IMG/VR virus record: IMGVR_UViG_3300008459_000476
Coordinates: 1-21,774 of that record
Reading direction: 5' to 3' (one strand)
From: a virus
Length of the DNA: 21,774 nucleotides
The translations under genes and the position numbers were made by a program. This document shows, one piece after another, positions 1 to 10,291 of the stretch; position 1 is the first letter of the stretch, and each line of letters begins with the position of its first letter. The notes beneath the pieces are model-generated. The model ran no database searches, had not been told where the DNA came from, and saw only the letters and a program-made list of their open reading frames with translations.

Positions 1-295
1 GGATATCATTCGCGGTTCCTTCGCCGTACTGGGCGTCTAGGTTGCGCCCAAATTCGTATTGCCTCCCTCCGTTCATGTTGCACTGCTTACATTGAAACTG
101 AACGTTTAACTCGTACCACCTGGTGCTAAACTTTGCCCTGGTGATAAAATGCCCCGCGTCTACCTCTTTCCAGTGGCGACGGGAGCCGCAAGTAAAGCAG
201 CTCCCGTAACCGTCGGAGTCCGTCGCACGCAACCGTACGTACTGGCTAAATACCTGGTCCAACTTCGCTACCAGTTTCTGGCGGGGTGTGGGCAT
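1..295 (-). CDS. ninG: NinG-like recombination endonuclease, C-terminus outside window
   Basis: The reading frame opens with ATG at 295 and stays open to base 1, giving 98 residues without a stop. It carries a zinc-finger-like pattern: Cys-Phe-Thr-Cys-Gly near residue 29, then Asp-Ala-Gly-His-Phe about 15 residues later, and Gln-Cys-Lys-Gln-Cys-Asn further on, followed by a Tyr...Leu-Asp...Tyr-Gly stretch. This order (CxxCG, DxGHF, QCxxCN, LDxxYG) is that of the lambda NinG/Rap family, which resolves branched recombination intermediates. The start overlaps the end of the upstream gene by 50 nt in another frame, which suggests translational coupling. It would be co-expressed with the replication genes, as ninG is in lambdoid phages. 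The family call is by motif recognition; the C-terminal half is not visible. Confidence 0.82.
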   Translation of the reverse strand, partial: MPTPRQKLVAKLDQVFSQYVRLRATDSDGYGSCFTCGSRRHWKEVDAGHFITRAKFSTRWYELNVQFQCKQCNMNGGRQYEFGRNLDAQYGEGTANDI

Positions 296-797
296 TGCGT
301 TCTTTGTCGCGGGCCGCTATCTCGGCGCGCTGTTCGGGGGTCAATTTAGAGCGCCTTGCGAGAATCTCCGCAAAGGTGGGCCGCACTTCTGGGAGTGAAT
401 CGATAATCTCCCGGAACGAGCGAGCCGCTCCCTGGTATTCTTGTTCCTGCTCTCTGTGGTGCGCCTCGCGAAAGGCTGCCACCGTTTCGCCGTCATACTG
501 CGATATCGCATTGCAAATGGTGGGGGTGTCCAGGCGGCCGTACAGCTCCACCTTTCCGAACCGGATTTTCTGGAAGACCAGTAGAATTTCCTCCACCTTC
601 AGCGAAGGGTTCGCCGCGATAATATCATCTACCGCCTGCTTAAAATCTTCCTCTGTTTCGTAGGTGGCTTTCACCATTACCGCCCTGGTGAGCTTTACCA
701 GTTCGCGGAAAAGGAGCAGGCGCAAGGCGGGCCGGTCCGCTTTATTCGCCTGGCTCACCGTTACCCCTTCGCGGTGTATCTGCTCTGGGGTGCGCAT
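246..797 (-). CDS. DUF6633-like protein, position of a helicase loader
   Basis: This 183-residue, highly charged, mostly helical protein follows the replication initiator. A central segment with Arg-Phe-Gly-Lys-Val-Glu-Leu-Tyr-Gly-Arg followed by a Tyr-Asp-Gly-Glu helix resembles the DUF6633 group, which I recall from phages and mobile elements of Bacteroidota (pattern roughly K.GRYG..YG..D). The function of that group is unknown. Its place after an O-like initiator is where lambda has the helicase loader P, but that is inference only and no Walker motif is visible. I chose ATG at 797, 16 nt after the upstream stop. The frame stays open to 1073, and ATG at 938 is possible, but it would overlap the initiator by 125 nt in a region where the initiator frame looks genuine. 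Confidence 0.6.
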   Translation of the reverse strand: MRTPEQIHREGVTVSQANKADRPALRLLLFRELVKLTRAVMVKATYETEEDFKQAVDDIIAANPSLKVEEILLVFQKIRFGKVELYGRLDTPTICNAISQYDGETVAAFREAHHREQEQEYQGAARSFREIIDSLPEVRPTFAEILARRSKLTPEQRAEIAARDKERNAHTPPETGSEVGPGI

Positions 798-813
798 GAG
801 CGCCGCCCCTGGG

Positions 814-1539
814 TCAGCTATTAGCCCAGCTAGCGACTGTTTCCAGGTTGAAATTTGAACGCTTAGGCTGCTCTCTGAGGGGAAAGAGTCCCTGCCACCC
901 GTTAGCGATTGACTGTTGAATGATTTTGACAGCTGCATGTGAGTCTTGTTTTGATAGCGTCTGCAAGTTATGAAGGGCTGCCTGTTCTCCGCGCGCGGTG
1001 TAGCTCCGGATTCCTCTTTCCTTCCGTTCCTGTTTCCAGGTGCTCCACATCTCCAAAAATTCCGCGCATTCAAACGGCATCACCACTGTGTTATTCTCTT
1101 TATTATCCTCTTTATTATCTCTCTTTATTATCTGTGCGCCTCCAGGCGCAACTTTTTGCGCCTCAGGGCGCAACTTTTCGCGCTTCCGGGCGCAACTTTC
1201 TGCTTTAATTGCGCCTCCAGGCGCGGGTTTTGACGGCCGTCCGCGCGTCCCTGGCTCGATTCCGCCGCGGGGAACTTCTGGGCCCAGCTGAAGTACGCGC
1301 GTTTTCCCGTACCCGGTTAGATGAAGCAACCCAGCATCTGTTAGGGCCTTTCGCATTTTGCGTACCTGTTGCTCCGTGCATTCCAGGAACTCGGCACAGT
1401 ACCCGTCCGATGCGTAACAGCCTCTGCCGGTATCCTCAAACGAGGAAACGAGGGCCAAAAAAAGGCGCTCCCTGAGGGTGCGCCCTTTTAAGTCCCACAC
1501 GCGCGCCGGTATCCAAATGCCGGTCAGTTCGTGTTGCAT
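814..1539 (-). CDS. Phage replication initiation protein (lambda O-like layout)
   Basis: The protein has 241 residues. Residues about 15-85 look like a winged helix-turn-helix DNA-binding domain (an ERLFLALVSSF helix, then an AEFLECTEQQVRKMRKAL recognition-helix-like segment). Residues about 105-150 form a low-complexity, charged linker. Residues about 155-230 end in Ser-Ile-Ala-Asn-Gly-Trp-Gln-Gly-Leu-Phe, a C-terminal motif common in phage replisome organisers of the O/DnaD type. The linker is encoded by an array of inverted repeats and AT-rich direct repeats that looks like the replication origin (see 1091-1224), just as lambda ori lies inside the linker of gene O. The gene overlaps the upstream HTH gene by 16 nt. 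The likely role is to bind the internal iterons and load the host helicase. The family call is by layout and motif; no close homologue is named. Confidence 0.72.
   Translation of the reverse strand: MQHELTGIWIPARVWDLKGRTLRERLFLALVSSFEDTGRGCYASDGYCAEFLECTEQQVRKMRKALTDAGLLHLTGYGKTRVLQLGPEVPRGGIEPGTRGRPSKPAPGGAIKAESCARKREKLRPEAQKVAPGGAQIIKRDNKEDNKENNTVVMPFECAEFLEMWSTWKQERKERGIRSYTARGEQAALHNLQTLSKQDSHAAVKIIQQSIANGWQGLFPLREQPKRSNFNLETVASWANS
1091..1224. other. Candidate phage replication origin: four iterons plus AT-rich 12-bp repeats
   Basis: On the + strand, 14-bp imperfect palindromes of the form GCGCCTCCAGGCGC occur at 1136-1149, 1158-1171, 1180-1193 and 1211-1224. The first three are exactly 22 bp apart and each is followed by AACTTT. 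The fourth is 31 bp further on. Directly adjacent are three copies of CTCTTTATTATC (1096-1107, 1108-1119, 1121-1132) in an AT-rich tract. Iterons beside an AT-rich unwinding region within an initiator gene is the arrangement of lambda ori. The function is inferred from layout. Confidence 0.7.
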
Positions 1540-1787: not shown

Positions 1788-1902
1788 CTGTGGTCATTCC
1801 TGAAATGCGTTTGAGGCCGGAAAAGTTAGCAAACGGTGAGGACTTCCAGTACATGCGGAAATCCGTTTGCGTGTTGGGTGTGTCAGCTATTGGGCGTCCC
1901 AT
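1693..1902 (-). CDS. Possible small overlapping ORF, hypothetical
   Basis: This frame encodes 69 residues with no recognisable domain and a charged helical C-terminal half. Its ATG overlaps the upstream stop (1883) by 20 nt, a spacing typical of this operon, and it fills the otherwise uncovered 1788-1882. However, its last 95 nt overlap the better-supported HTH gene in another frame. It could be a real small gene, a leader coupling translation to the HTH gene, or chance. Confidence 0.33.
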   Translation of the reverse strand: MGRPIADTPNTQTDFRMYWKSSPFANFSGLKRISGMTTDETHEWIEKYERALSARAASSETSQEHGGSE

Positions 1903-2257
1903 CCTCTAGCATTTTATCCCTGAGTTTTAGCAGGGCCTTCGCCGTTTCCTCGATTTCGTCCAGGCTCCGTGAACCCGCCGAAATAGCCTGCCCGATAGCC
2001 CAGGATGCATCGATGCGGCTCTGCGTGCTTTTGTCCTGGGGCCGCGCCTGGAGCTCCGGCTTTTTGAACTTGAATTTGGTACCGTAGTTCCCGGTGGTAG
2101 CCTCTACCTCTACCGTGTCTCCCACTTTCCACGTGTCCGGCTTTTTGGTAGATACCTCACCCATCCGTCCATCATCGAGGGTCGCCTCGAATTTGTAGAA
2201 TGTTCCGTACTGGGATTCATAGGTTCCCATTCCCTGCAACTGTTTGATAATAGCCAT
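1883..2257 (-). CDS. Putative OB-fold single-stranded DNA-binding protein
   Basis: In this 124-residue protein, residues 1-66 look like a small beta-barrel: alternating strands with Tyr-Gly-Thr-Phe-Tyr-Lys-Phe-Glu, a Trp-Lys-Val-Gly-Asp-Thr-Val strand, and Asn-Tyr-Gly-Thr-Lys-Phe-Lys-Phe-Lys-Lys-Pro. This is the pattern of compact OB-fold proteins in phage replication modules. The C-terminal 55 residues form a charged helix ending in acidic residues, loosely like SSB tails. Its position in the replication operon fits a single-stranded DNA-binding role. The start ATG is preceded by the U-rich leader ACCTTTTTAATT, also seen before the capsid and scaffold genes, which suggests high expression. 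OB-fold by eye only. Confidence 0.5.
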   Translation of the reverse strand: MAIIKQLQGMGTYESQYGTFYKFEATLDDGRMGEVSTKKPDTWKVGDTVEVEATTGNYGTKFKFKKPELQARPQDKSTQSRIDASWAIGQAISAGSRSLDEIEETAKALLKLRDKMLEDGTPNS

Positions 2258-9712: not shown

Positions 9713-10291
9713 TCAAGACAGGGAATTGACAATCTCAGAAACCGCGTTCTCTAGGGCCTGCTCAAAAGAAAGGGCTGCAGCTTCCTGGCGGCGCGTAAAT
9801 AGGCCCTCGATGCTGAACCCTTTTACCCGGCCGGTCTTTACCCAGTCATTCCACAGCGTTTCGCTGTCAATCTTCATCGAAACCATCCAGGTTCCACGTG
9901 GAACATTCATACCGTAGAGCGCGGATTTGTCTTTTTTGGAGTCCTCCACAATCCAAGACTCCACTACCGTAGTACCCTGTACCGGGGCCTCGTGTTCGAG
10001 GGTCGCGCGGCTCTGGTTGCCTGCCTGAAAATAGAGCTCCATAGCCTGGCGCACCGTGTCCTTACTAAACAGGATATAGAAATCTTCGCCGTCCTTGTGG
10101 CGGTAGATTGGTTTATCTGGAATGAGGGCGGGCCCCATTACCAGGCGCTTTTCTTCATCGATAGCTTTAAACCGGAATTCTTCCGACAGTGCTACGAAAT
10201 CCTTTTCTATAGCCGGTTCCTCCACTAAAGAAATGGCCTGGATGCCGAACGCTTCGGCGTCCGTGTCGATAATGAGCTCGTATACGTTCAT
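9713..10291 (-). CDS. XkdF-type prohead serine protease (Peptidase_S78_2)
   Basis: The 192-residue protein contains the sequence signature of XkdF: Gly-Pro-Ala-Leu-Ile-Pro-Asp-Lys-Pro-Ile-Tyr-Arg (about 53-64), Phe-Ser-Lys-Asp-Thr-Val-Arg, Glu-His (about 99), Val-Val-Glu-Ser-Trp-Ile-Val-Glu-Asp, Gly-Thr-Trp-Met-Val-Ser-Met-Lys and Gly-Phe-Ser-Ile-Glu-Gly. In this assemblin-like family the His of the Glu-His motif and the Ser of Phe-Ser-Ile-Glu-Gly are the expected catalytic residues (about His100 and Ser160). It should process scaffold and capsid during head maturation. ATG overlaps the tape measure stop by 4 nt. Confidence 0.86.
   Translation of the reverse strand: MNVYELIIDTDAEAFGIQAISLVEEPAIEKDFVALSEEFRFKAIDEEKRLVMGPALIPDKPIYRHKDGEDFYILFSKDTVRQAMELYFQAGNQSRATLEHEAPVQGTTVVESWIVEDSKKDKSALYGMNVPRGTWMVSMKIDSETLWNDWVKTGRVKGFSIEGLFTRRQEAAALSFEQALENAVSEIVNSLS

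Follow-up and report, generated by a model that had tools for sequence, protein, structure and literature searches.

What a regular array of short repeats does inside a phage gene that appears to encode a replication initiator is the question raised by this locus. The DNA analysed here (the window) is a virus record of 21,774 nt, a phage fragment with a NinG-like gene truncated at its left end and a terminase domain at its right. By computation we describe the anatomy of the array, its constraint at the DNA level, its layout in related lineages and the covariation of its iterons with the recognition helix of the initiator. From this we infer that the array, located at 1.1-1.2 kb, is in all probability a theta-type phage replication origin embedded in the initiator gene.

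The Initiator Gene and Its Surroundings

The repeats lie in a gene for a 241-aa protein whose best match was PHROG 678, "replication initiation O-like" (3.9e-13), with a further match to PHROG 270, "replication initiation protein" (1.1e-10). The match to Pfam HTH_36 (PF13730) stayed below threshold (16.4 bits, cut-off 25), and the protein had no Pfam profile match to the RepA_N domain. An AlphaFold2 model built from 25 aligned relatives allowed the division of the protein into three parts, which are given here together with the lambda-like gene nearby:

814..1539, minus strand: O-like replication initiator gene (P0001), 241 aa, with matches to PHROG 678 and PHROG 270
1264..1539, minus strand: N-terminal winged-HTH domain, residues 1-92 (AlphaFold2, pLDDT mostly 80-95)
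1099..1263, minus strand: disordered linker, residues 93-147 (pLDDT <50 over 93-147), whose coding DNA houses the repeats
814..1098, minus strand: C-terminal helical domain, residues 148-241 (conserved alignment columns; AlphaFold2 helices)
2..295, minus strand: NinG-like gene (PF05766, 3e-9), truncated by the contig end; a gene of the lambda nin region

In the model, the winged HTH is made of helices at residues 22-35, 45-52 and 56-68 and strands at 72-75 and 82-85, the recognition helix corresponding approximately to residues 56-68. The C-terminal domain shows helices at 159-174, 182-195 and 200-212 and carries the conserved motifs W..W...K and SIANGWQGLF; its probable role is the recruitment of the helicase or of a partner. 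In a Foldseek comparison with the PDB, the top matches were the RepA_N plasmid initiators 4pql, 4pt7 and 5kbj, all of them weak (E 0.006-0.02), and MarR- and ArsR-type repressors were also among the structural matches of the initiator. A sequence profile search likewise gave a weak match to 4pt7 (RepA_N) at E 0.07, after MarR-type regulators at 0.006.

Past the initiator gene, the order is a gene with a weak DUF6633 match and then NinG, inside which the contig stops. The first of these (246-938, minus strand) overlaps the 3' end of the initiator gene, and its DUF6633 match (6e-4) is below the cut-off. No P-like helicase loader gene was recognised next to the initiator, on a contig that ends within NinG, and the 21.8-kb window as a whole has no recognisable gene for a helicase or a loader. 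On the other side, positions 1883-2257 (minus strand) encode a 124-aa protein with no Pfam, PHROG or NCBIfam match above chance, which by eye (YGTFYKFEATLDDGRMG) could be an OB-fold single-strand DNA-binding protein.

Anatomy of the Repeat Array

A repeat search of the window detected one four-copy family, with starts at 1136, 1158, 1180 and 1211 (22, 22 and 31 bp from start to start), and this is the window's sole direct-repeat family of at least 20 nt with copies within 300 bp. The elements of the array, for which no strand is assigned, are the following:

1211..1224: iteron 4, with 6-bp dyad arms and without the AAAGTT flank, 31 bp from iteron 3
1180..1201: iteron 3, 22-bp unit, core in phase 2, peptide ESCA
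1158..1179: iteron 2, 22-bp unit, core in phase 0, peptide KLRP
1136..1157: iteron 1, 22-bp unit, core in phase 1, peptide KVAP
1095..1132: AT-rich tract, three coding-strand GATAATAAAGA units with spacing 13 and 12, the least stable DNA of the window

On the coding strand, iterons 4, 3, 2 and 1 are followed by the three GATAATAAAGA units, and the invariant iteron core reads AAGTTGCGCC. The original prediction, made from the DNA letters, placed 14-bp palindromes at these four positions, the first three with a 22-bp period; positions and period were right, but the palindromes are not equal, in such a way that copies 1 and 4 (GCGCCTCCAGGCGC) have perfect 6-bp arms and the arms of copies 2 and 3 are reduced to 5 and 4 bp, respectively. 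The AACTTT that had been reported after each of the first three copies was found at all three. As also anticipated, the three cores occupy three reading frames and encode unrelated peptides (phases 2, 0 and 1). By simple arithmetic, spacings of 22, 22 and 31 bp correspond to approximately two, two and three helical turns of B-DNA. The sole perfect 14-bp palindrome of the window is GTTCCACGTGGAAC, at 9891-9904, within a Peptidase_S78_2-like gene.

The linker-coding segment 1099-1263 includes the iterons and nearly the entire AT tract. Within the tract, GATAATAAAGA units start at 1097, 1109 and 1122, and the three AT-repeat copies that had been described as adjoining the iterons correspond to CTCTTTATTATC at 1096, 1108 and 1121. 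Units two and three share one phase and both encode DNKE, whereas the first lies in another phase and encodes IIKR. The least stable 38-bp stretch of the window begins at 1092, and the tract 1095-1132 is probably the DNA unwinding element. No DnaA box (TTWTNCACA) was found in the window; such boxes are not required where an origin is served by an initiator of its own. The cumulative GC skew, expected beforehand to centre at 1.1-1.2 kb, showed no turning point near 1.1 kb in this 21.8-kb fragment.

A set of dyads inside a winged-HTH gene could also be an operator, through which the protein represses or regulates its own operon while replication starts elsewhere. Winged-HTH proteins often autoregulate, and the MarR- and ArsR-type repressors among the structural matches point in the same direction. 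However, the sites lie approximately 315-405 nt inside the gene, and no promoter-like site was found near the repeats, the two detected being at 2224-2274. In addition, an operator leaves unexplained both the adjoining AT repeat of low stability, present also in relatives, and the membership in an O-like family. We consider this explanation unlikely, having in mind that operator and origin roles could coexist.

The Repeats Are Constrained as DNA

The array was compared with a synonymous recoding null, in which the protein is fixed and the codons are permuted or resampled (2 x 3000 trials). None of the 6000 recodings attained the observed repeat score of 28, the maxima being 16 and 18, and the three GATAATAAAGA units observed compare with at most two in any of the same 6000. 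The 14-bp dyads alone were weakly significant, their observed number being reached by 69-72 of 3000 recodings (around 2%). Lambda O, used as a positive control, passed this test by a small margin, its value being reached in 1 of 300 recodings. A peptide repeat as the source of the DNA repeat was ruled out by synonymous recoding. These data show that the linker repeats are constrained at the DNA level and not at the peptide level, in agreement with the claim that the repetition is kept for DNA reasons.

Layout and Periodicity in Related Initiators

Relatives were collected by scanning viral and genome contigs, down to approximately 25% identity; one of the search patterns was based on the peptide that the AT tract encodes, which biases the frequency of AT tracts among the relatives. 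In their alignment, the N- and C-terminal domains are conserved and the linker is unalignable, and the linkers show lineage-specific repeats followed by an AT-rich stretch. This comparison had been proposed beforehand as a test, and its outcome, a layout of iterons plus AT tract that persists while the linker peptide varies, was the one predicted. By contrast, the statement that the repeats are unlike those of any origin does not stand, since AAGTTGCGCCT or similar GTTGC iterons occupy the same place in four related lineages (L026, L036, L041 and L056). The iteron core is common to the window and to relatives of 36-38% protein identity.

When 47 lineages were pooled and compared with the recoding null, an excess of self-similarity in linker DNA was detected at 21-24 bp, with its peak at 22 (mean z at 21, 22 and 23 bp of 0.92, 1.86 and 1.18), with doubles at 42-46 bp and also a repeat of 12 bp, in agreement with the AT tract. 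The HTH-coding DNA of the same 47 lineages, used as control, was flat, without periodic excess. The period of the linker is independent of the reading frame, neither 22 nor 23 being divisible by 3. In single-gene tests the best repeat beats every recoding in 29 of the 54 relatives; in many lineages, therefore, the repeats are too short or have diverged too far to be significant by themselves. In 47 of 49 lineages, the coding strand of the AT tract is rich in A. The tracts often consist of ATAATA units with a 12-bp period, and resemble single-strand capture motifs such as DnaA-trios.

Searches by DNA pattern were less productive. A nucleotide search of a phage collection with positions 1-2300 of the window gave zero matches, as did a strict tandem iteron pattern in viral contigs, and a loose tandem-AGTTGCGCC pattern hit at least 120 stretches, none of which, among the matches listed, was in an initiator-like ORF. 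The search with paired GATAATAAAGA produced 18 matches, mostly to unrelated Asp/Asn/Lys-rich proteins, three groups among them (L014; L020; and L021, L022 and L025) being initiators with iterons of their own.

Iteron Sequence Follows the Recognition Helix

Iteron similarity between lineages tracks the identity of the recognition helix, with a Mantel r of 0.49 in a test that leaves some shared ancestry in. With control for GC content and for the remainder of the wHTH, r was 0.29 (0 of 2000 permutations), and a slight correlation with the C-terminal domain was also detected (partial r 0.21), partial Mantel tests being known as lenient. Individual pairs show the same trend. Between the window and L056, the recognition helix is 69% identical (VRKMR) and the rest of the wHTH 39%; linker-peptide similarity is 0.13 and the C-terminal domains are unrelated (0.07), yet both have the iteron words AAAGTTGC and GGCGCAA in common. 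The window and L030 have related C-terminal domains (0.49) and no iteron similarity. An independent case is gp70 of Pseudomonas phage Cruim01 (L271), which was retrieved by protein similarity alone: its helix reads LSNSRVSEII, and its (A/C)CCTATTCGGAAA repeats, at spacings of 20, 22 and 23, resemble the TTCG iterons of the lineages with LSKNRCSEII. The initiator very likely binds the iterons, the covariation being an indirect indication that this binding would be specific.

Other features were observed in the same set. Six lineages (L063, L077, L098, L101, L120 and L271) have in common the helix motif LS(K/N)xR(C/V)SEII and TCG-type iterons, and the hosts of these phages span different groups, including Clostridium and Pseudomonas. 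Nearly the same wHTH domain and iterons, joined to unrelated C-terminal domains, were found in L036 (3992-4756) and L056 (3998-4744), with similarities of 0.73 for the N-domain and 0.05 for the C-domain, and also in L076 (4001-4798) and L099 (3989-4930), with similarities of 0.92 and 0.04.

Repeats without DNA function could also be left by slippage or by a tandem duplication of recent date, in a linker under no constraint. This would fit with a linker that is disordered and variable, and duplication is presumably how iterons originate. Such a process does not account for a 21-23 bp period with doubles across 47 pooled lineages despite their different iteron sequences, nor for an iteron core common to relatives of 36-38% identity that tracks the recognition helix, nor for the maintenance of the order of iterons and then AT tract, and we consider it very improbable. 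Least probable of all is that the GC inverted repeats act as hairpins of the mRNA, in attenuation, termination or the control of translation. In favour of this, the fold of the 160-nt RNA is better than that of shuffled sequences (z -4.4) and one terminator-like site is found on the opposite strand at 1135; against it, a good fold follows automatically from GC-rich dyads, terminator-like sites number 3 versus 2.9 in shuffles, no Rfam match was obtained, and the iterons of AT-rich relatives, such as TTAACAAAAGTTAA, would be weak hairpins.

Comparison with Known Origins

The plan of a replication origin within its initiator gene is that of lambda ori, as had been proposed for this locus. In gene O of lambda, and in the Stx phages P27 and 933W, an O-like initiator gene likewise carries four iterons and then an AT-rich tract in its middle; in the window, the O-like gene encodes a disordered linker and the iterons lie beside the least stable DNA. 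The annotated lambda iterons start at 39034, 39054, 39078 and 39101, thus 20, 24 and 23 bp apart, versus 22, 22 and 31 in the window. The presence of NinG nearby is a further lambda-like feature, whereas the P gene of the lambda module was not seen in the window and the iteron sequences are unrelated (ATCCCTC ends in lambda versus the AAGTTGCGCC core). Experiments on lambda and Stx phages show that the iterons are the binding sites of O, that unwinding, but not O binding, requires the AT-rich region, and that synonymous changes in the iterons abolish transformation (PMC7466680; PMC5043065).

RepA_N initiators, such as Rep of pSK41, have a winged-HTH N-domain and Rep boxes in the linker-coding DNA, as in the window gene, which differs in being a phage gene with no RepA_N profile match and a weak fold match. 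In pSK41, the ori is central in rep, the linker encoded there is dispensable, and the C-domain of Rep interacts with replication proteins of the host (PMC5703833). In pPR9, an HTH_36-type N-domain and its origin replaced the block of pSK41, with around 500 bp exchanged, and the rep region replicates autonomously (PMC5703833). The chimeric Rep of pPR9/pUSA03 has a phage-type HTH_36 (pfam13730) N-domain, the family to which the window initiator belongs by its weak Pfam match; unlike the window, it is found on a plasmid and has the C-domain of pSK41. In the Francisella phage vB_FhiM_KIRK, the replication gene fhv_0043 houses a putative origin of the lambda type, in which repeats and a repeated KDNNK peptide are present (PMC7924643). 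This peptide resembles the DNKEDNKE of the window, although the sequence differs, and the KIRK origin is also a prediction.

Proposed Mechanism and Significance

If the array is a replication origin, the winged HTH would bind the iterons, probably in dimeric form at the dyads and all on one face of the helix. The resulting wrapped or bent complex would melt the adjoining GATAATAAAGA tract, one strand would be kept open after melting, and the C-terminal domain would bring the replicative helicase, directly or via a loader. The linker peptide would act as a spacer of nearly irrelevant sequence, and, as its sequence would hardly matter, the linker DNA would be free to act as the origin.

The lambda-type plan is already known from lambda O, RepA_N plasmids, pPR9 and KIRK, and the window adds a probable example from an uncultured phage; our comparison covered open-licence papers, and origins of this type may already have been surveyed broadly for this initiator family elsewhere. 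In this gene the same DNA would be read twice, as linker peptide and as origin, the two readings being separable: the period of around two turns is kept in all three frames and the peptide drifts. The comparison also yields a practical rule for finding origins in uncultured phages, and the pairs of recognition helix and iteron are directly testable candidates for binding specificity.

The sequence comparisons suggest that the N-domain and the origin may travel as one cassette. We lean slightly towards a broader proposal, in which wHTH and iteron array would form a portable specificity cassette, common to phages of many bacterial groups and placed on unrelated C-domains, with a two-turn phase of 21-23 bp regardless of frame, in such a way that the origin and the recognition code of its initiator could be read from the gene alone.
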